Positions 20,600 through 31,772 of a DNA stretch of 64,000 bases are shown in pieces. This DNA is from Maribacter sp. (GTDB lineage: Bacteria; Bacteroidota; Bacteroidia; Flavobacteriales; Flavobacteriaceae). The stretch lies in the NCBI GenBank assembly GCA_024643345.1, contig JAHENB010000006.1:1-64000 (forward strand), read 5' to 3'. Each line of letters opens with the position of its first letter. Position 1 is the first letter of the stretch. The notes beneath the pieces were generated by a model. The model saw only the letters and a program-made list of their open reading frames with translations, was not told the DNA's origin and did no database searches. The position numbers were made by a program, and so were the translations under genes.

Positions 20600-22777
20600 C
20601 TAAGCCTGCAGTACTTGCAATACCCTTTCAGGGGTAAAGGGCAAATGCCGGAGTGGCTTGCCCGTTAACTTCAAAAAAGCGTTCGCGATGGCGCAGGCCA
20701 CCAGTGGGGTGCCCGATTCTCCCACGCCTTGGGGATGCTCTGACGACGCGATCATCTCAGTTTCCACGGTTTCCGGGATATCCTGCATGCGTAGTATTTG
20801 GTAATCATTGAAATTCGATTGCTGCACGGCGCCATCCACAATGGTGATCTGTTCATAAAGCACACTGCTGATGCCCATGAGGATGCCCCCTTCCATTTGG
20901 GCCTTTACATTATCCGGTTGTACGATCACGCCAGCATCCACAGCGTTCCAAAAATGATGCACCTTTATTTTACCTGTTTTTGTATCCAGGGAAATCTCGC
21001 ATACGCCCGTTCCCAAAGAACCGCTGCGTTCCAAAAAGGCCATGCCTTTTGCCCGTCCTGCAATCGAAGGTTCATTCCATTTCGACATTGCTACGGCTTT
21101 TTCCAAGGTTGCAAGCGCCCTGGGCGATTTTGACATGAGCCTCCTACGGAGTTCCACCGGATCGATACCTTGATCGTGCGCAATTTCATCCAACATACAT
21201 TCGATGGCGAATTTATTGGGCCCATGGCCTACGGCCCGCCAATGTTTAAGCCTTATGCCCTGTGAGACTTCACGCCATTCGGCATATTGATTGGCGATAT
21301 CGTAATGTTCATTTTTGATGCCGCTGGCGACCAGATTGCCCCCATCGCCCACCACGATATGGGAAAATCCCGTGATTTTCCCATTGGTATCGGTGCTCGC
21401 CCTAAGGCGCTGAAGGGTAAGCGGCCTAAAGGCGCCATAGGTAACATCATCCTCCCTGGTCCATAACAGTTTTACCGGGATACCGGGCATTGTCGCTGCC
21501 AGAGAAGTACATTCAAGTACAAAATCGGTCATGCTCCTTCTTCCGAAACCACCTCCTAAATATTGCAGGTTGATGTTCACATGCTCTGGCGGAATTCCCA
21601 AATGCTGGGGAACCCCCAGTTTAGAGTCGAACCCCTGCTGGCTGCCCACCCAGACCTCGGCACTTTGTTTGTCCTCCATAACTTTTACCATAGCATTCAG
21701 CGGTTCCATTTGGGCATGGTATACATAGTCGTTCTTAAAATCGGCAGTGTAGGTCTTTGCTGCCGATCGAAAGGCACTTTTTGTATTTCCGATTTCCGTG
21801 AGTACTTGTCCATTCTTGTTTTGATCGGCTATTTTTTCGTAGGCCCCATAGGCTTCCTGGGAATTAAAACCACTTGCGATGGCCTTGCCCCATTCGATTT
21901 CCAATTGTTTTTTGGCCGCCAGGGCCTTTGATAAAGTAGTGGCCACCACCCCGATGGCGTATTCAAAAGGCACCACTTTTAAGACGCCATCCAGGGCCAA
22001 AATCTCCTCTTCGTTCTTTATGATTGGCTTGGCCCCGTGCACTTTGCCCCTTTCCAAAACTCCATAAACCATGTCCGGAAGTTTCAGGTCAATGGCGAAC
22101 TTGGCCTTGCCGTTCACTTTTTCAGGAATTTCTGTACGTTCCAAATCCTTCCCGACCAACCGAAAGGAAGCGGGACTTTTTAATTGATCTTCCGTAAATT
22201 CGGGCAATTGCTCCGGAATCTCAAGGAAAGGAACAATGGCGCCATAACCAATCGACTTGTTTTCTTTTTCATGGATCACAATTCCATTTTCCGTGCTTAG
22301 TTCGGTTATGGGAACGTTCCATTTTTTTGCGACACTGTATAGCAATATGTACCTTGCCTGTGCCCCCGCCTTTCTCATGATGGAATAATAACCAAAGGTG
22401 ATGCGACTGCCGGCCGACAGCATTACCTTGCCGTTCGGCCCCCACCCATCGGACCCATAAATAGCCGATTCTTGGGGCGAAAAAGCGACCTTGACCAAAG
22501 ACCAGTCCGCATCCATTTCTTCTGCGAACAAGACCGGTAGTGAGGTCATGGATCCCTGGCCCATTTCAGCGGCCGGGTTATAGATTGTGACATGCCCATC
22601 CTCAGCCAACTCGACCCATGCCGTAAGTCGCTGTTTGTTGATGGTTTCCTGGAGTTTCTTTCGGTTCTTGCATGAGACCAGTTGCGGCAAAATGCCCGAA
22701 ACCCCAATGAATAGTGCCACACTGCTTGAGGACTTTAAGAATTGTCTTCTGGTTTGTGATTTTAACGGCATGTTCAT
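20600..22777 (-). CDS. Molybdopterin-binding subunit, xanthine/aldehyde dehydrogenase family (IsoQR-like)
   Basis: This is the large molybdenum subunit of a two-subunit oxidoreductase of the isoquinoline 1-oxidoreductase / aldehyde oxidase type. The Tat signal TRRQFLKSSSSVALFIG shows folded export to the periplasm. Typical Mo-cofactor segments are AAEMGQGSMTSLPVLFAEEM, YLGGGFGRRSMTDFV and the final GVGESGTPLVACAIANAF carrying the catalytic Glu. At 725 residues it is of normal size and uninterrupted. The [2Fe-2S] partner is directly upstream; a cytochrome c subunit to accept electrons is not in the window. The substrate, an N-heterocycle or aldehyde, is unknown. Confidence 0.93.
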   Translation of the reverse strand: MNMPLKSQTRRQFLKSSSSVALFIGVSGILPQLVSCKNRKKLQETINKQRLTAWVELAEDGHVTIYNPAAEMGQGSMTSLPVLFAEEMDADWSLVKVAFSPQESAIYGSDGWGPNGKVMLSAGSRITFGYYSIMRKAGAQARYILLYSVAKKWNVPITELSTENGIVIHEKENKSIGYGAIVPFLEIPEQLPEFTEDQLKSPASFRLVGKDLERTEIPEKVNGKAKFAIDLKLPDMVYGVLERGKVHGAKPIIKNEEEILALDGVLKVVPFEYAIGVVATTLSKALAAKKQLEIEWGKAIASGFNSQEAYGAYEKIADQNKNGQVLTEIGNTKSAFRSAAKTYTADFKNDYVYHAQMEPLNAMVKVMEDKQSAEVWVGSQQGFDSKLGVPQHLGIPPEHVNINLQYLGGGFGRRSMTDFVLECTSLAATMPGIPVKLLWTREDDVTYGAFRPLTLQRLRASTDTNGKITGFSHIVVGDGGNLVASGIKNEHYDIANQYAEWREVSQGIRLKHWRAVGHGPNKFAIECMLDEIAHDQGIDPVELRRRLMSKSPRALATLEKAVAMSKWNEPSIAGRAKGMAFLERSGSLGTGVCEISLDTKTGKIKVHHFWNAVDAGVIVQPDNVKAQMEGGILMGISSVLYEQITIVDGAVQQSNFNDYQILRMQDIPETVETEMIASSEHPQGVGESGTPLVACAIANAFLKLTGKPLRHLPFTPERVLQVLQA

Positions 22778-22810: not shown

Positions 22811-23284
22811 CTAGCTGACTGAAGGCGGATTTTCCGAAGCCAGTTGAATGGCCTTTAATATACGCATGTACGTACCACATCTGCATAAATTTCCATTCAT
22901 GTAGGACAATATTTGATCGCGATCGGGTTTCGGGTTCTCGTTTAACAAAGCCACGGCTTGCATGATCTGTCCTGATTGGCAATACCCGCACTGCGGTGCT
23001 TGTGCTTTGATCCAAGCTTTTTGTACGGGATGATCCCCCGCTTCAGATAAACCTTCAATGGTGGTGATTTTTTGTCCGTCCGCAAAACCGTCCACGGTTA
23101 GCACACAGGCCCTCTGGGGACTGCCATTGACATGTATGGTACAGGCGCCGCATTGCGCGATGCCGCAGCCATATTTGGTGCCAGTCAGTTGAAGATGCTC
23201 CCTTAGCACCCATAACAATGAGGTGCCTTGATCCACATCAATTTTGTGTACTTTGTTGTTGATGTTTAAGGAATAGGTGGGCAT
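22811..23284 (-). CDS. [2Fe-2S] subunit of molybdenum oxidoreductase (IsoR-like)
   Basis: The 157-residue protein has an N-terminal plant-ferredoxin-type cluster (Cys40, Cys45, Cys48, Cys60 in YGCGIAQCGACTIHVNG and the following strand). The C-terminal helical cluster uses Cys99, Cys102, Cys134 and Cys136 (CGYCQSGQ, CRCGTYMR). It has no signal of its own, so it probably rides through Tat bound to the large subunit, whose gene starts 33 bases downstream. Confidence 0.95.
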   Translation of the reverse strand: MPTYSLNINNKVHKIDVDQGTSLLWVLREHLQLTGTKYGCGIAQCGACTIHVNGSPQRACVLTVDGFADGQKITTIEGLSEAGDHPVQKAWIKAQAPQCGYCQSGQIMQAVALLNENPKPDRDQILSYMNGNLCRCGTYMRILKAIQLASENPPSVS

Positions 23285-23363: not shown

Positions 23364-24269
23364 TTACCTTACACCGCTGACATTCATCTCCAAGGTATAG
23401 ACCGAATCCATTGCCGTAATAAAAAGCGTATGTTGGCCTACGCCCCCAAAGGTAACATTGGCGGTCCAATTTTCTCCGGTAACAATATGCTCGATCTCTT
23501 GGCCTTCTTTATTGAAAACGGTCACCCCATCGCCAGTGAGGTAGACATTGCCCTGGTTGTCCAATGTCATGCCATCCGATCCTATTTCGCAGAATAGCTT
23601 TTTATTACCTAAGCTGCCGTCATCGTTTATGGTATAAGAATAGGTTTTTTTGTCACCGATATCCGCTACATACAAGGTTTTGCCATCAGGCGTACCGATG
23701 ATGCCATTGGGTTGTACCAAAGCATCGGCTACGATTCTTATTTCCCCTAGATCTGAACTAAGATGATAGACCCTTTGCTCCTTAATTTCCGGTTCCTCGT
23801 GATCCCAATATGGTCTTTTGTAAAAGGGGTCGGTAAAATAGATACCCCCATCGGGATCGATCCAAAGGTCGTTTGGTCCATTCAGTAGTTTTCCCTCAAA
23901 ATCATTGATCAAAACCGTAACATTTTGATCGGAATCGATCAACCACAATTGGTTTTTCTCGTCGGCACAGGCCAGAAGATTGCCGTCATGGTCGAAATAA
24001 AGTCCGTTCGCACGGCCCGCGGGCTGCATATAGGTCGAAACCGTATTGGTTTTGGCTTCCCATTTTAGGATGCGGTCGTTGGGTTGGTCCGTGAAGAATA
24101 CGTTTCCATCGGTGTCCACTGCCGGACCCTCGGTGAATTTGTAATCGTCGGCGACCAAGGTCAATTGTGCACCATCCTTAATGATGGCATTTTTTTGGGC
24201 CGTACAGGAAGTGATTGGCAAAAGGCAAACTAAAAATAGTGCCAACGGAGAATGGTTCATTTTTTTCAT
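23364..24269 (-). CDS. SMP-30/gluconolactonase-family lipoprotein
   Basis: A six-bladed beta-propeller of the SMP-30/LRE family: KFTEGPAVDTDGNVFFTDQP, LLNGPNDLWIDPDGGIYFTD and VQPNGIIGTPDGKTLYVADI are characteristic. These enzymes hydrolyse sugar lactones. The lipobox LPITSC gives a lipidated Cys22 when counted from the preferred start MKKMNHSPLAL; the track start lies six codons upstream. It sits between the D-aminoacylase-like and iron-sulfur genes in the array. The lactone is unknown. Confidence 0.9.
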   Translation of the reverse strand: MKKMNHSPLALFLVCLLPITSCTAQKNAIIKDGAQLTLVADDYKFTEGPAVDTDGNVFFTDQPNDRILKWEAKTNTVSTYMQPAGRANGLYFDHDGNLLACADEKNQLWLIDSDQNVTVLINDFEGKLLNGPNDLWIDPDGGIYFTDPFYKRPYWDHEEPEIKEQRVYHLSSDLGEIRIVADALVQPNGIIGTPDGKTLYVADIGDKKTYSYTINDDGSLGNKKLFCEIGSDGMTLDNQGNVYLTGDGVTVFNKEGQEIEHIVTGENWTANVTFGGVGQHTLFITAMDSVYTLEMNVSGVR

Positions 24270-24319
24270 GGCGTTCAATTTATGCAATCTTTAAAAATAA
24301 TTCTGCTTTTCTTATTTTA

Positions 24320-25969
24320 TTACTCTACTCCATTCCATCCTGGACCATGCACGACACGACCGGAAAAGACCCCTGTGTGTTCTCCATCTTTTAGCACCTG
24401 CTCGCCATTGACAAAAACATCTTTTACGCCGGTAGCATACTGGTGGGGCTTTTCGAAAGTCGCATTGTCCCTGATTTTATCTGCATCAAAAACAACGACA
24501 TCGGCAAAGAACCCCGCTTTCAATGACCCTCTTTTCTTTAATTTAAGATTTGTGGCAGGAAGGTTTGTAAGCTTGTAAATGGCCTCTTCCAAAGAAATGA
24601 CCTTCTCTTCGCGGACATATTTTCCCAAAAGCCGGGCAAAAGAACCGTATGCTCTTGGATGGGTGCTTTGTTCCAAAAATATCCCTTCGTTGGTATACGA
24701 ACCGGCGTCGGAACAGATGCTCATATAGGGAAGGGCCAGTTTCTTTTTGATATTGTCTTCGGACATTGAAAAGTATACCACCTGTATCCTACTATTGTCT
24801 TCATAAATAAGGTCTACCAAGGTTTCATTGGCAGTTTTGTTCCTTTCCTTGGCCACATCGGCAAGGGTTTTTCCGATGAGCTGCCTCAGGTCCTTGTTCC
24901 GGAAACCGACCAGAAGAATTTTATCGGGGGGAACGTGAAAATCAATTTCGGCCATCATTTTTACCCTTTGCTTCGGGTCCTCGATCAGTTTCATGGTCGC
25001 GTCATGTCCCCCTTCCTTGGCCCAAGCCGGAAGAACCACATTGAGGCCCGTGGAACTTGCGTTATAGGTGTACATGTCGGTTGTGATGGGCAAGCCTTTC
25101 TTTCGTGCGCCTTCGACCAATTGGATCGCACTGTCCAAGAGGTGCCAATTGGCATTTCCCGAAGCTTTGAAGTGATAAATTTCCGCAGGGATGTTGGCTG
25201 CCTCGGAAATGGTGATCAATTCCTGTACTGCATCCAGGAGTCCGCCTTCCTCATCACGGATATGGGAGATGTACATCCCGTTATAGGCTGAAACCACTTT
25301 GGCCAATTCAATGATCTCAGGAGTTTGTGCATGGCCACTGGGCACATAGATCAAAGAAGTGGAGAGTCCCACGGCGCCTTCCTCCATTGCCTGTCGCATC
25401 AGTCGTTTCATCGTATCCATTTCCTGCTCAGTAGGGGGTCTTTTTTCATAACCCATGACATATTCCCGTAAAGTGCCATTGCCGACAAATGAAGCCACAT
25501 TGGTGGAAATGCCCTTATTTTCCAAAAAGGCGAGGTATTCCCCAAGACTGTTCCAAGAAACATCATATCTGATATCGTCCTGTTCTTCCTTCATTTCATT
25601 TTTCATCTGCTTGTTCAAGGGACCCATGGAATGGCCTTCCCCCATCACTTCCAAAGTAACTCCCTGTCGGATATCGCCTTGGGAACGGCCATCTTGGATA
25701 AGCGATTCATTGGCCCAGCTGAGCATGTTGATAAAGCCTGGGGCAACCGTAAGGCCCGTTGCGTCAATTTCAGTCGTGCCATTTGAATTTTCAAGTCGAC
25801 CGATGGCGGCGATGGTATCTGAATTGATGCCGATATCCCCAACGAACGGTTTTGAGCCCGATCCATCGACGATGGTTCCATTTTTGATGAGGACGTCATA
25901 AGTGACGGGCTTGGAACAGCCCGTTAAAATGCAAAAAAACAGGAACAGGATTTGAATCGCCGATTTCAT
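24320..25969 (-). CDS. D-aminoacylase-like amidohydrolase with altered metal site, lipoprotein
   Basis: The lipobox ILTGC gives a lipidated Cys18. The composite barrel starts DVLIKNGTIVDGSGSKPF and ends with GFFADVVVFDADKIRDNATF, as in N-acyl-D-amino-acid deacylases. The first metal motif, normally GFIDxHxH, reads GFINMLSWANES (78-89), so both histidines are missing. The Cys-bearing GNCG segment is replaced by GEGHS (110-114). Other parts persist, such as SHIRDEEGG, EIYHFKASG and CSDAG. I believe this describes a subclade rather than a damaged gene, because the frame is intact over 549 residues. The reaction is uncertain; the neighbouring transporter probably imports its product or substrate. 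Confidence 0.85.
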   Translation of the reverse strand: MKSAIQILFLFFCILTGCSKPVTYDVLIKNGTIVDGSGSKPFVGDIGINSDTIAAIGRLENSNGTTEIDATGLTVAPGFINMLSWANESLIQDGRSQGDIRQGVTLEVMGEGHSMGPLNKQMKNEMKEEQDDIRYDVSWNSLGEYLAFLENKGISTNVASFVGNGTLREYVMGYEKRPPTEQEMDTMKRLMRQAMEEGAVGLSTSLIYVPSGHAQTPEIIELAKVVSAYNGMYISHIRDEEGGLLDAVQELITISEAANIPAEIYHFKASGNANWHLLDSAIQLVEGARKKGLPITTDMYTYNASSTGLNVVLPAWAKEGGHDATMKLIEDPKQRVKMMAEIDFHVPPDKILLVGFRNKDLRQLIGKTLADVAKERNKTANETLVDLIYEDNSRIQVVYFSMSEDNIKKKLALPYMSICSDAGSYTNEGIFLEQSTHPRAYGSFARLLGKYVREEKVISLEEAIYKLTNLPATNLKLKKRGSLKAGFFADVVVFDADKIRDNATFEKPHQYATGVKDVFVNGEQVLKDGEHTGVFSGRVVHGPGWNGVE

Positions 25970-25997: not shown

Positions 25998-27359
25998 TTA
26001 TTGTCCGAATAATTTAATGACCCCCAGTACGCCAACGCCGAGGATACTTAAGATGCTCAACCAAAGTACCAGGTCATAATATAGACCGGGCTTAAAAATA
26101 GGATTTATCCTTTTATATCTGAAATGGAGTACCGCATAGACCACCAGGAACAATAAAAATGAACCTACAATGCCTCCCGAAATAACCATGAGCACGGGCA
26201 ATTTAATAAATACGAACAACAATGCCCAAAGCATGGGAAGGACCCACGCAAAAATGGCCACCGTTTTTTTTCGACTCTTAAAATTGGAAAAATCGATCCA
26301 GCCCAACTGACCGAAAATATCGGATGCTTGTCTGGTCCACGCCGCCAGGGCAGCAAAAAGAGTTGAAAACAAGGTGATGAAGGCCCCGATCAAAAAGGCA
26401 GTTTTGGCCAATGGCCCCAGCGATTCGGTGTACATGGCAGATAAGGTCTCGACCATGGCGTACCCCTCGGGAATATTGCCCTGCGCATGCAGTACCGCTG
26501 CCCCCAATAAATAAAAGGCTGCCGTCACCGTGGTATAAATGAGCATGGCGACAATGGCATCAAGTTTCATCACCTTGAGCCAACCCGCCGCACGTTTTTT
26601 CCAGGCTTCCGAACCATCATTTTTTCCGGAATACGAAGCGTAGCCTTTTTCAAGGCACCAATAATTGTAATGGATGATTTCATCGCCCCCAACACCCGTA
26701 ATACCAAAGGCGCCAAAAGCTACGGCTAAATATTCTTTCGGCAAATTGAACTGCAACCCACTCCAAATATCGGCCCAATCGATTTGAAATGGCGTAAAAC
26801 TCAAAAAATAAAGGGAAGCAAAGGTGAACAAGGTAAAAATACCGATCATGGCCAATGACAATCGCTCGATATACCGGTAATACCCCCGGTACACCATCAA
26901 GGCAACAACGATGGCAATGCTGAACGCATACCATGGAATGCTTATTGCAGGTGCAATGATATTCAAGATAATGGCCACCCCGCCCACGATGCCCCCTACC
27001 TGCAAGAGTTTGATTACCATGACCATCAAAACTGTCCAAACCGACCATTTTGCCTTGCCAAAACGGGGTCCAGGCAACTGGTTAAAGGCTTGCATTGCCG
27101 TTTCCCCCGTTAGGATGGTATGTTTTCCAAATTCCAACTGAACGGCCACTTTTACCATACAGCTAACGATGATCACCCAAAAAGTGATGAAACCTGCTTT
27201 GGCCCCTAAAGTGGTGGTTGCAATCAGTTCTCCGGAGCCCACAATAGATGCCGATAGAATAAAACTAGGCCCCAAAAATTTAAACCTGTTTTTTAAAGTG
27301 TTTGGCGGTTCCTTGGTCTTATCGGGCGATAAAACATACGGATCGATCGGTTCGGGCAT
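25998..27359 (-). CDS. Nramp-related transporter without the metal-binding motifs
   Basis: About eleven hydrophobic segments and a LeuT/Nramp-like layout place this 453-residue protein in the Nramp superfamily. In metal-transporting Nramps TM1 carries DPGN and TM6 carries MPHN. Here TM1 reads SIVGSGELIATT (GSGE, 41-44) and the TM6 region reads FGITGVGGDEIIHYNYW (about 218-234). The residues that bind Mn/Fe are therefore absent, and the ion or solute is likely different. It sits in an array of exported hydrolases, so an organic substrate is a reasonable guess. Databases will probably call it a divalent metal transporter by default. Confidence 0.85.
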   Translation of the reverse strand: MPEPIDPYVLSPDKTKEPPNTLKNRFKFLGPSFILSASIVGSGELIATTTLGAKAGFITFWVIIVSCMVKVAVQLEFGKHTILTGETAMQAFNQLPGPRFGKAKWSVWTVLMVMVIKLLQVGGIVGGVAIILNIIAPAISIPWYAFSIAIVVALMVYRGYYRYIERLSLAMIGIFTLFTFASLYFLSFTPFQIDWADIWSGLQFNLPKEYLAVAFGAFGITGVGGDEIIHYNYWCLEKGYASYSGKNDGSEAWKKRAAGWLKVMKLDAIVAMLIYTTVTAAFYLLGAAVLHAQGNIPEGYAMVETLSAMYTESLGPLAKTAFLIGAFITLFSTLFAALAAWTRQASDIFGQLGWIDFSNFKSRKKTVAIFAWVLPMLWALLFVFIKLPVLMVISGGIVGSFLLFLVVYAVLHFRYKRINPIFKPGLYYDLVLWLSILSILGVGVLGVIKLFGQ

Positions 27360-27380: not shown

Positions 27381-28217
27381 TTACAGAGAGGCCAAGAATT
27401 TCATGTTGTGCTGCATGCTTTCAAAAGGCGTGCTCGCATATTCTTCTTGTTCAATAAAGATATGTTTTACCCCTGAAGCTTCCTGAAGCGCCATCATGGC
27501 ACGAATATCCAGACCACCTTTCCCAAATTCGGTACTTTCCTTTTTGGCCATATCCATATCCTTGAGGTGCCATAAAGGAAATCGCCCAGGGAACCTTGTG
27601 AAGTAATCCTTGGGGTCTTTCCCGGCAACGATCACCCAACCGAGGTCTAGTTCCATATGTACCAAACCGGGCTCGGTGTTATCCAAGAGCAGATCGAACA
27701 AAACTTGACCGTTCTCCGATTCAAATTCGTACTCATGGTTGTGGTATCCGAATTTTATGCCCAATTGTCGGCAAGATTCCCCTGCTTTGTTAAATTCTTC
27801 GGCTACTTTTTTATAGTTGTCCGCCGTTTGCCCGTTACTCGGCATGGAGGAGCAGATCAAATATTCCTGTCCCGAAGCCACCGCCTCTTCCATGGTCTTC
27901 TGAAAGTTTTCATCCAAAGCCACGTGCCCGCTCGTTAATTTCATGCCCAACCCATCACAGGTTTGCTTCATTTCAATTGGGGAGAGGCCATAATAGTGTC
28001 CTTTTCCACTCCTTGCCGATTCTATTTCCTTAAAGCCGAGCGATGCGATCTGTTCCAAGGTGCCCATGGCGTCTTTTGCCATTTCATCCCTAAAACTATA
28101 TAATTGTACCCCATAGTTAGGGGAACTTACCGAGCCGAATAGGTCTGAGGGCATCAATAAAGATCCCAAAGCAAATGAACCCGTATGTTTAATAAAATTC
28201 CTTCTTGTGTGCGTCAT
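27381..28217 (-). CDS. Tat-exported sugar phosphate isomerase/epimerase-like protein
   Basis: The start MTHTRRNFIKHTGSFALGSL is a Tat signal. The body is a xylose-isomerase-like TIM barrel (AP endonuclease 2 family): YGVQLYSFRDEMAKDAMGTL, FGYHNHEYEFE, HMELDLGWVIVAG, FPLWHLKDMD and HIFIEQEEY carry the usual metal-binding acidic and His residues. It acts outside the cytoplasm, probably on a free sugar or polyol. It is 21 bases from the transporter gene and 5 bases from the DUF3500 gene. Confidence 0.9.
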   Translation of the reverse strand: MTHTRRNFIKHTGSFALGSLLMPSDLFGSVSSPNYGVQLYSFRDEMAKDAMGTLEQIASLGFKEIESARSGKGHYYGLSPIEMKQTCDGLGMKLTSGHVALDENFQKTMEEAVASGQEYLICSSMPSNGQTADNYKKVAEEFNKAGESCRQLGIKFGYHNHEYEFESENGQVLFDLLLDNTEPGLVHMELDLGWVIVAGKDPKDYFTRFPGRFPLWHLKDMDMAKKESTEFGKGGLDIRAMMALQEASGVKHIFIEQEEYASTPFESMQHNMKFLASL

Positions 28218-28222
28218 CCGGT

Positions 28223-29257
28223 TTAGTTTTGTTGTTGGTGTTCCATGCTGTAGTGGGCTTCCAGAAGGTCTTCGGCATAGTCATTGCCAAGGTCCCTTAT
28301 GACCGTATGCACATGGTTGGCGTTGTTCTGTATATTGTCATATTCAATGAGCAGCATGGGACCTTGGATACGATAGTACTGGGCAATTCCCTCCTGTTGG
28401 CCACCTGCCCAGGCGAAGCTTAGTTTTTCCAAGCCCGCTTCGATGATCCTATTCCTGAAAGATTCGGAAAACTCAAAGATATAATTGCCGATATAGACGT
28501 TCAACAATTCCATAAATATTTTCTTTTGGACATCGTCTAAAGCACTGAAGTAAATGCCTTTCTGTTCTATGCCTTCCACTTTCCTTTTATTGGCCGTGAT
28601 GATTTCGGCCGGTGCCTCATCGGAGAATTTGGCCACTTTGAGCTGCTCACCTGTCAACGCATTGACGAGCGCAAATCCCAGTTCCGATTCTTTTTTTAAA
28701 ACCTGCTTGCCGCGCTGCAGGTCTATTTTTACAATGGCGGGATTGGTGCCCATAAATGAGGGTGTTGCCGAAACGATCTTCCCTTGGTCAGAGGTGAAGT
28801 TCATCGAGAGATGATGCCCTTCGAACCGCCAACCCCATGGCTCGGTGGAAGAAGGGGTGCCGAAAATACAAAAATGATAGTTCAGGGGATCTCGTACGGT
28901 ACCATCGGGCATATGAAAACCCTTTTTTTCGATGACGAGCAGCACTTTTTCAAGTTCCCTGATGTCTTGCGCTTTGTCAAAGCCTTCCTTGCTCAAGGAG
29001 GCTTTTAATAGATCGAGGGCCGCTTGGGTTTGTTCCTCGTTGAAGTCATTAAAGGTGGGTCCTTTACGGATTACGGGTATATAGTTCATGTTGAACCGTT
29101 CCGAATCGTCCAATGAAAAAGTCGCGGCGGATCTTAATTCAGTTGGCAAGGTGCTTAAAAAGGCGTTCGCTTTTTCCGAAAGATCTTGGGCGCCTATTTT
29201 TGCCATGACTAACATGCAGGTGGCCAGTAATATTGTTTTAAAAGAATTCATATTCAT
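28223..29257 (-). CDS. DUF3500 domain protein, exported
   Basis: A signal peptide (MNSFKTILLATCMLVMAKIGAQ) is followed by about 315 residues that match the DUF3500 family, for example FGTPSSTEPWGWRFEGHH and the C-terminal FAWAGGQQEGIAQYYRIQGP. The conserved His residues in EGHH and in HVHTVIRD suggest a metal or redox site, but no activity is established. It is closely spaced with the isomerase gene, so it belongs to the same operon. Confidence 0.88.
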   Translation of the reverse strand: MNMNSFKTILLATCMLVMAKIGAQDLSEKANAFLSTLPTELRSAATFSLDDSERFNMNYIPVIRKGPTFNDFNEEQTQAALDLLKASLSKEGFDKAQDIRELEKVLLVIEKKGFHMPDGTVRDPLNYHFCIFGTPSSTEPWGWRFEGHHLSMNFTSDQGKIVSATPSFMGTNPAIVKIDLQRGKQVLKKESELGFALVNALTGEQLKVAKFSDEAPAEIITANKRKVEGIEQKGIYFSALDDVQKKIFMELLNVYIGNYIFEFSESFRNRIIEAGLEKLSFAWAGGQQEGIAQYYRIQGPMLLIEYDNIQNNANHVHTVIRDLGNDYAEDLLEAHYSMEHQQQN

Positions 29258-29307: not shown

Positions 29308-30798
29308 TTATTTCAATCTATAACTTACAAAGGCAATTCTTTGACTATCAGGGGACCAAGAAGGCACATTGATCGTGCCTTGCCCTCCAAAAAGCTTTGC
29401 CATGACCTGGATTTCCCTTGTTTCCAGATCCATCAATCGCAACATCACGTCTTTGTTGGGCGGATGGCTTCCCGAAGGCACTTCGGTGTTGAAGGAGACA
29501 TAAACGATCCATTTCCCATCGGGCGATGGGTGTGCGAACCAATCGTTGTATTCGTCCGTTGTAATCTGTTCTTGGTCGCTTCCATCCGGTTTCATCCTCC
29601 AAATCTGCATGGTGCCGGTGCGATTTGAGTTAAAGTAGATATACTTTCCGTCAGGTGAATAATCGGGGCCATCATCCAACCCTTCCGCACTGGTCAGCCT
29701 GGTTTCTTTCCCGCCTACGGTGGGAACGGTGTATATGTCGTAATTACCATTTCTTTCGGCACAATAGGCCAGGGTTTTTCCGTCAGGGGACCATCCATGC
29801 CAATAGGAGGGGCCAAGTGGCGTGATTTTTTTGGGAAGGCCTCCCGCTATAGGGAGGGAATAGATCAGCGATTTTCCCGTCTCCGTTTGATCACTGATGA
29901 CCAATTGCTTGCCATCTGGCGAAATCCCGTGATCATTATTGATCCTTTTTGCAAAATCTGTGGGAATCAGTTGTGGTTGGCCTCCCGAGGATGGAATTTT
30001 ATACAACAAACCCCCACTATTATAAATCAAGTTTTTTCCGTCGGGAGACCAATTCGGTGCCTCCAAATGGCTTTGGGTATGGTATACCACTTTTCGGTCA
30101 AAGGAACTTATGGGGATGGTTTCCAAAGTACTTTCAACTTTTTTGAGCGAATCGGGTTTTTGGGAAAGCGTTTCTATTACGACATTTGAAAATTTAACGG
30201 TTTCAATAATTTCAGCGTTGTGGGAACAGACTCCCAGACCTACATAAAAAGGTTCCTTGAACGGCAATTTAAATGAGCCTCCAGTGGAGACCAATTGGCC
30301 ATCGGCCAAGGCAAGGCTCATAGATAGGTAGTCCCCTTCCTTCTCGACCCGAATGCGTTTTGGCTTGCTTAGATTTGATTGCACTTCTCTGGTGGGGCCT
30401 CCCGAAACATCCCTGTATTGAATGGACGTAAGTCCGTCGCCATGTACCACGGCATCCGCATATGCCGAATTGGGCTCCAGTCCTTGTCGAATGATCAAAC
30501 ATGCCTTTCGATGGGGATCTACCCCTTCGGTGATCCATTCAATATCAGCCGCCAGGGAAATGTCTCCGGTCATTTTTTTCCAAACAAAATGGAATTCATC
30601 GGTATCGAACCACATATTGGAACCGCTTGCGGATATGGTATAGCTACTATCGGATGGACTAAACCTTAACGATCCCGCTTGTTTTACCGGACCTATATCT
30701 TCGCTGCCCTCAAAATATCCTAAATCGGGAGCTTTTTTGCACGCGTAATGGCCCAAAAAGAGCAAGGCAAGCACATAATATTTGATTGGCGATCTCAT
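29308..30798 (-). CDS. PD40/TolB-like propeller lipoprotein
   Basis: The lipobox near GHYAC gives a lipidated Cys20. Residues 40-210 form a beta-sandwich resembling DUF1349/LamG-type domains ([20 protein letters not shown]). Residues 230-496 carry repeated PD40 blades such as [28 protein letters not shown] and [16 protein letters not shown]. Such proteins bind ligands or partner proteins at the surface. It is the first gene of the long minus-strand array and follows a 197-base divergent gap shared with mazG. Confidence 0.88.
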
Positions 30799-30972: not shown

Positions 30973-30980
30973 TACTTTTG
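30973..30980 (+). promoter_or_regulatory. Putative -7 promoter box of mazG
   Basis: TACTTTTG matches TAnnTTTG, 15 bases before the mazG ATG. The transcript leader would be only a few bases long. Confidence 0.45.
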
Positions 30981-30995
30981 TTCAAAACAAAATTA

Positions 30996-31772
30996 ATGAA
31001 CACAAGGGAAGCCCAATTAAAAGCCTTTGATCGATTACTCACCATTATGGATGAACTTCGCGCCCAATGCCCTTGGGACAAGAAGCAGACCATGCAGACC
31101 TTAAGGCATTTGACCATAGAAGAGACCTATGAATTGGGGGATGCCATTCTTGAAAACGATTTGCAGGAAGTGAAAAAAGAGTTGGGAGATGTTTTGCTCC
31201 ATCTTGTATTTTATGCCAAAATCGGTAGTGAAACAGATCATTTTGATATTGGCGATGTGTGCAATACGATCTGTGACAAACTTATTCATAGACATCCACA
31301 TATTTATGGTGATGTGGTCGTTGCCGATGAAGAAGAGGTAAAGCGAAATTGGGAGAACATAAAACTTAAAGAAGGTAAAAAAAGCGTCTTGGAAGGCGTT
31401 CCTTTAGGTTTACCAGCTTTGGTGAAAGCCAATCGCATTCAGGACAAAGTCGCGGGTGTCGGCTTCGATTGGGAAAAACCTGAACAGGTTTGGGAAAAGG
31501 TACAAGAGGAATTGCAGGAATTGCAAATGGAAATCGATCAGGGCGATTCCGATAAAATGGAAGCGGAATATGGCGATGTGCTTTTCTCCATGGTAAATTA
31601 TGCCCGTTTTTTGAATATTGATCCCGAAAACGCTTTGGAACGTACCAATAAGAAATTTATGAAACGGTTCTCACATCTGGAAAAGAGAGCCAAGGAAATG
31701 GGAAAATCCCTCAAAGAAATGACACTGTCCGAGATGGACGTCTTTTGGAACGAAGCCAAATTACTTCCATGA
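30996..31772 (+). CDS. mazG: Nucleoside triphosphate pyrophosphohydrolase MazG
   Basis: MazG hydrolyses (d)NTPs to monophosphates and pyrophosphate, a house-cleaning activity. The protein has two MazG helical repeats. The active-site helices are IEETYELGDAILENDLQEVKKELGD in the first repeat and EEELQELQMEIDQGDSDKMEAEYGD-like segments in the second; LRAQCPWDKKQT is the standard N-terminal signature. I start at ATG 30996 (MNTREAQLKAFDRLL) rather than the TTG given by the track, because the TTG lies inside the promoter box. Length is 258 residues. Confidence 0.95.
   Translation: MNTREAQLKAFDRLLTIMDELRAQCPWDKKQTMQTLRHLTIEETYELGDAILENDLQEVKKELGDVLLHLVFYAKIGSETDHFDIGDVCNTICDKLIHRHPHIYGDVVVADEEEVKRNWENIKLKEGKKSVLEGVPLGLPALVKANRIQDKVAGVGFDWEKPEQVWEKVQEELQELQMEIDQGDSDKMEAEYGDVLFSMVNYARFLNIDPENALERTNKKFMKRFSHLEKRAKEMGKSLKEMTLSEMDVFWNEAKLLP

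Follow-up and report, generated by a model that had tools for sequence, protein, structure and literature searches.

An Nramp-fold protein without metal-binding motifs in a Maribacter operon is probably a carrier of organic acids

The stretch of DNA analysed here (the window, 64,000 nucleotides of Maribacter sp. contig JAHENB010000006.1) encodes an Nramp-fold protein that is probably an inner-membrane secondary carrier of a small carboxylate-bearing organic solute, and not of a metal. We consider import of an organic acid probable because the metal contacts of canonical Nramps have been lost, the gene belongs to an operon that degrades organic compounds, and a TRAP system is found in the corresponding cluster of a related genus. 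The initial annotation of this DNA had placed the gene at 25998-27359, which is exact, without giving its strand (minus), and had suggested that the product may carry an organic solute. This suggestion is supported by four lines of evidence, all indirect, namely the contact loss, the operon-like run of mostly export-type enzymes, the cluster with TRAP in place of Nramp, and the neighbours of distant relatives. The same four lines support its warning that a label of metal transporter would probably be wrong.

The carrier gene and the segments of its product discussed below are the following (TM, transmembrane helix):

25998..27359, minus strand: Nramp-fold carrier, 453 aa, ATG start, 11 predicted TM helices, GSGE in TM1
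27195..27269, minus strand: TM1 helix, residues 31-55, from the predicted model
27228..27239, minus strand: GSGE, residues 41-44, at the DPGN position, from ungapped profile alignments and mapping of E. coli MntH
27000..27011, minus strand: TM3 Lys117-Gln120, the stretch with the acidic proton-pathway residues in canonical Nramps
26664..26705, minus strand: TM6 break GITGVGGDEIIHYN, residues 219-232, in place of the MPH region, from the break in the model at residue 222 and the alignments
26172..26177, minus strand: TM10 Gly395-Gly396, with Gly396 where canonical Nramps have the conserved metal-contacting Gln (mapping of E. coli MntH Gln353)

The replacement of DPGN by GSGE, already read from the sequence in the initial annotation, is confirmed by ungapped alignments with DraNramp, BfraNramp, EleNRMT and E. 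coli MntH, in which D-P-G-N corresponds to G41-S42-G43-E44. The MPH motif of TM6 (A/C-x-x-M and His) is likewise absent, as had been claimed: the register of TM6 is uncertain by a few residues, and in all three possible registers residues 208-234 lack Met-Pro-His, containing no Met and a single His, H230, a position occupied by His in just 3 of 19 diverse GSGE members. When E. coli MntH is mapped onto the carrier, Asp34 falls on Gly41, Asn37 on Glu44, Met209 on Ile229, His211 on Tyr231 and Gln353 on Gly396. A shift of the motifs to another place is excluded, because neither Asp nor Asn occurs anywhere in TM1 (residues 31-55), and Met and His are not found as a pair in TM6. By these alignments, the residue loss is larger than first described, since TM3 (residues 106-135) has no Asp or Glu, with Lys117 and Gln120 there instead, and the canonical metal-contacting Gln of TM10 is not present. 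Every known metal and proton-pathway contact is thus gone from this protein, a loss that is conserved in its clade.

All 43 close sequences compared, namely the window protein and its relatives of 58-82% identity, have GSGE, and so do all 19 diverse members, down to 28% identity, which rules out chance or an assembly or sequencing error as its origin. Among the same diverse members Gln120 and Tyr231 are invariant (19/19), and Glu227 is kept in 18, with Asp in the remaining one. A phylogeny including Nramp variants had been proposed at the outset, and in the maximum-likelihood tree the window protein falls within an 18-row GSGE clade with a support of 100/100, with well-supported branches between it and E. 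coli MntH; the deeper joins are unsure, owing to long branches. Members of the clade come from Bacteroidota, Actinomycetota, Alphaproteobacteria and one haloarchaeon, the sampling outside Bacteroidota consisting of plasmid loci. A relative of the carrier was found in 20 of 396 evenly sampled Bacteroidota genomes, counting that of the window, and in none of 59 other nearest genomes at E<=1e-30. One GSGE-family copy (L065, G343:C33:142142-142849) has internal stop codons and is apparently a decaying gene.

The AlphaFold model (pLDDT 81, pTM 0.82, with lower confidence around TM1) indicates that the carrier keeps the Nramp/LeuT fold. The best Foldseek match is DraNramp (8e60, TM-score 0.83 by target length), followed by EleNRMT and BfraNramp; the top 27 matches are all of the Nramp family, with the YcsG model (9a52) at rank 21. 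The carrier has no match to the Pfam Nramp family PF01566 at E<=0.001, and it is accepted by NCBIfam NF037982, "Nramp family divalent metal transporter", with 125.1 bits for a curated cut-off of 50. This score does not certify metal transport, because the same equivalog model also accepts two paralogues from the same genome with GTSH and GPGT in TM1. Plasmid-borne GSGE relatives carry the name "divalent metal transporter" in their record annotations.

The carrier is the fourth gene, in transcription order, of a run of eight minus-strand genes separated by 5-79 bp. The other seven genes, in the same order, and the flanking gene are:

29308..30798, minus strand: PD40/TolB-like beta-propeller, putative lipoprotein, first gene of the run
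28223..29257, minus strand: DUF3500 protein with a signal-like N terminus
27381..28217, minus strand: xylose-isomerase-like TIM barrel (TIM) with a Tat-like N terminus
24320..25969, minus strand: D-aminoacylase-like amidohydrolase (HYD), putative lipoprotein, without the HxH and Cys metal ligands
23364..24287, minus strand: SMP-30/gluconolactonase-like (lactonase-like) protein with a putative lipoprotein signal
22811..23284, minus strand: [2Fe-2S] subunit of a xanthine-dehydrogenase-type molybdoenzyme
20600..22777, minus strand: molybdopterin-binding large subunit of the same molybdoenzyme, with a Tat-like N terminus
30978..31772, plus strand: MazG gene, a divergent flank outside the operon, by which the syntenic slot can be recognised in related genomes

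The two neighbours described initially are indeed adjacent on the same strand, HYD at 28 bp and TIM at 21 bp from the carrier. The kinship of HYD to D-aminoacylases stands, and its value as a clue to the substrate does not, as it lacks their HxH and Cys metal ligands; the "sugar isomerase-like" protein is a TIM barrel whose matches are restricted to broad TIM-barrel families. From N termini read by eye, HYD, the SMP-30-like protein, TIM, DUF3500, the propeller and the large molybdoenzyme subunit are putatively exported. Most of this gene order is kept in loci of marine Flavobacteriaceae, and HYD lies directly 3' of the carrier in 16 loci, the window included. An Rfam search of the window gave no match.

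HYD itself looks, from its sequence, like a distinct amidohydrolase subfamily. At the site of the D-aminoacylase HxH ligand it has GFINMLSW, and GEG instead of GNC, the same in all orthologs aligned, and it keeps two His and the Asp at the catalytic position. Partial HYD-related copies (56% and 65% identity) occur on contigs 20 and 32 of the same genome, one of them starting at a contig end. The relatives of HYD include D-aminoacylase and the N-acetylglucosaminate (GlcNAc1A) deacetylase PpOngB, a kinship that suggests amino acids or amino-sugar acids as possible substrates. No substrate can be named from HYD, given the missing ligands: a D-amino acid was dropped for this reason, the HxH and Cys ligands lacking in every aligned ortholog, and GlcNAc1A is a candidate at most, PpOngB being no closer to HYD than D-aminoacylase is. 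The described GlcNAc1A pathway imports through an SSS carrier, and its deacetylation step takes place in the cytoplasm (PMC9537276). An apparent link in the literature between Nramp and sugar-acid use by Salmonella proved to be mouse genotype text.

In many Flavobacteriaceae the locus is found next to MazG, whether or not it holds the carrier; we compared 32 such loci, sampled by HYD and by TIM and not by the carrier. A transporter is present in 7 of the 19 loci with HYD (five with the carrier, two with TRAP; neither in the other 12) and in none of the 13 with TIM and no HYD, so that in this sample a transporter is present only where HYD is (Fisher p=0.025 for any transporter, and p=0.064 if the carrier alone is counted, with no correction for kinship among the loci). 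One carrier locus without HYD, from Arenibacter (L017), is known. Both TRAP loci (in genomes G629, with DctP at L164:3702-4691, and G783) have the run DctP-DctQ-DctM-TIM-HYD-SMP30, with no Nramp gene there, and probably represent one event, since they belong to the same genus. The Pfam E-values are 1.5e-76, 1.2e-20 and 4e-118 for DctP, DctQ and DctM, and the best-scoring named equivalog for DctM is the 2,3-diketo-L-gulonate TRAP permease YiaN, far below the cut-off. TRAP systems are mostly carboxylate carriers. DctPQM thus stands in the same cluster, upstream of TIM-HYD-SMP30, as the carrier does elsewhere, but it has three components and an unrelated fold, so that the likeness is one of role only. 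In another locus (L162:9367-10467) a 366-aa membrane protein without a Pfam match lies between TIM and HYD, the place of the carrier elsewhere. In L209:3-9500, and similarly in L210-L212, related TRAP systems have as neighbours an amidohydrolase, two RidA-family proteins and a SelA-like PLP protein.

Distant GSGE genes often adjoin genes for sugar-acid or carbohydrate enzymes, whereas canonical MntH genes often adjoin metal genes. On two Streptomyces plasmids the GSGE gene is near a four-carbon acid sugar kinase, PdxA, a member of an aldolase family, an aldo/keto reductase and a phosphoglycerate dehydrogenase; on a Rubrobacter plasmid near a UxaA family gene, a FadR/GntR regulator and lactate genes; on a Halocatena plasmid near mannonate dehydratase, an aldolase of the dihydrodipicolinate synthase (DHDPS) family and an aldehyde dehydrogenase; and on a Microscilla plasmid near SusCD, a porphyranase and GH43. 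The context is less clear on a Skermanella plasmid, as it is on a Roseomonas plasmid, where the gene follows a catecholate siderophore-type biosynthesis cluster. In Bacteroidota, the neighbours include a putative cyclase (L037), an SDR (L029), a GH5 (L038), an alpha-L-fucosidase (L084), an FAA hydrolase (L098) and GFO/IDH dehydrogenases (L041, L097), and for many members (L030, L032 and L095) housekeeping or unrelated genes. A tannase/feruloyl-esterase-family gene lies 40 bp from the GSGE carrier in L088:6351-7943, and likewise in L089. None of the plasmid-borne GSGE members was found next to a metal regulator or metal-resistance gene, which 5 of the 8 plasmid loci of canonical MntH used as controls are, both samples being small and scored unblinded; in these controls a metal-dependent regulator is adjacent in three loci and P-type ATPase or copper genes in four, and one locus adjoins L-2-hydroxyglutarate oxidase.

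In the mechanism that we propose, the putatively exported enzymes of the operon would act on a small organic compound. The carrier would then import a product, an acid of the hydroxy, sugar or amino-acid-like kind, by alternating access in the Nramp fold. The substrate may be held between the broken TM1 (Gly41-Ser42-Gly43-Glu44) and the broken TM6 (Glu227, Tyr231), facing Lys117 and Gln120 of TM3, and we would guess that co-transport of H+ or Na+ powers the import. A Ser/Thr pair in TM8 was not used as a sign of Na coupling, because a comparable Ser-Ser-Thr is present in E. coli MntH.

Organic solutes that have no free carboxylate (neutral sugars, amides, amines or phenolic compounds, for instance) are unlikely substrates, although GH43, GH5, alpha-L-fucosidase, the tannase-family protein and the amidohydrolase-like HYD among the neighbours would suit such compounds, and hydroxyls or an ammonium group could be bound by Glu44 and Glu227. 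What argues for a carboxylate instead is that the exchange partner of the carrier, TRAP, is established as mainly carboxylate-carrying, that several distant neighbours act on acids (the four-carbon acid sugar kinase, UxaA family, mannonate dehydratase), and that Lys117 and Arg343, present in 14 and 18 of the 19 diverse members, respectively, could pair with one.

It is also unlikely that the protein still transports a divalent cation such as Mg or Mn, perhaps in hydrated form, through a site rebuilt on Glu44 and Glu227, perhaps feeding the neighbouring metalloenzymes. These two acids near the site are conserved, so that the lost residues do not by themselves exclude a cation, and motif loss alone is a weak argument, because EcoDMT with N54G/A232T/M235A, which removes N, A and M ligands, retained Mn transport (PMC8806188). 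The fold points in the same direction, as does the kinship to the Mg transporter EleNRMT (PDB 7qia), which is distant and yet the best sequence match of the carrier in the PDB (5e-6 with the single sequence, 1.6e-10 with a profile), and which also lacks the canonical motifs. The reported effect of YcsG (MntG) on cellular Mn (PMC10448178) and the siderophore-type cluster beside the Roseomonas relative could be read likewise. However, the NRMT signature, DxxG in TM1 and TxxA/T in TM6 (PMC8806188), differs from the carrier, which has Gly41 in place of the TM1 Asp and Glu44 at the fourth position. This Asp is described as universally conserved in SLC11 and required for transport by EleNRMT (PMC8806188), and here it is invariantly Gly, with the TM10 Gln also Gly. 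The plasmid-borne members without adjacent metal genes, set against the MntH controls, and the TRAP system in the same cluster of one genus also argue against a cation.

A carrier of metal-organic complexes, such as a metal bound to a hydroxy acid or a catecholate fragment, would fit the catecholate siderophore-type cluster and alpha/beta hydrolase beside the Roseomonas relative and a site that mixes acidic and basic residues, but it is very unlikely, this being a single such locus while the other informative contexts hold carbohydrate or organic-acid enzymes without siderophore genes.

The carrier thus shares with canonical Nramp/SLC11 proteins (E. coli MntH, DraNramp, BfraNramp) the fold and a remote sequence kinship over TM1-TM3, but not DPGN, MPH, the acidic TM3, the TM10 Gln or the gene neighbours. 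The role we favour, import of an organic acid, has a precedent in PxpT of Corynebacterium glutamicum, an Nramp-family protein required for growth on 5-oxoproline, as is reported also for YcsG in Bacillus subtilis (PMC13274462); overproduction of YcsG raised cellular Mn in B. subtilis, and Mn import was claimed (PMC10448178). Both are Nramp-family carriers encoded in organic-acid (5-oxoprolinase) operons that hold pxpABC, whereas no pxpABC-type product is found among the annotated neighbours of the window carrier. According to a 2026 BfraNramp preprint, the Nramp-related groups ("NRMT-like", "G-motif 3" and others) are paraphyletic, have neither of the metal motifs nor the proton pathway, and are uncharacterised except for NRMT and MntG; substrates and gene neighbourhoods of these groups are not given in its text (PMC12873925). 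The GSGE clade most likely falls within these groups, as compared through the text of the preprint.

If import of organic acids is right, a widespread clade labelled as metal transporters by a curated equivalog model has another function, metal-uptake predictions are wrong for many bacteria and some archaea, and a missing importer has been found for carbohydrate and organic-acid degradation. The uncharacterised Nramp-related groups (PMC12873925) would also become testable, via the soluble TRAP binding protein from the cluster of one genus. A broader idea, which we regard as possible but doubtful, is that the Nramp superfamily began as organic-acid carriers and acquired metal transport a single time, together with the DPGN/MPH site. 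The older function would then survive in the GSGE clade (sugar and hydroxy acids), PxpT (5-oxoproline), and the hydantoinase-linked Nramps of haloarchaea and the amidase-linked Nramp of Rhodococcus.

Nramps with DPGN were not found in the genome of the window, which encodes two further proteins of the superfamily, one with GTSH in TM1 (contig 48, L002) and another with GPGT in TM1 and VVPYN in TM6 (contig 18, L003). The latter clusters with Nramps of haloarchaea whose genes lie ahead of hydantoinase/oxoprolinase genes; in Haloferax and Haloarcula (L103:4992-9847 and L104:4989-9817) such genes lie directly before those for hydantoinase/oxoprolinase A and B, and are annotated as metal transporters. 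In Rhodococcus (L102:4932-7639), an Nramp-related gene is directly followed by an amidase gene, with RidA and an FAD oxidoreductase encoded upstream.
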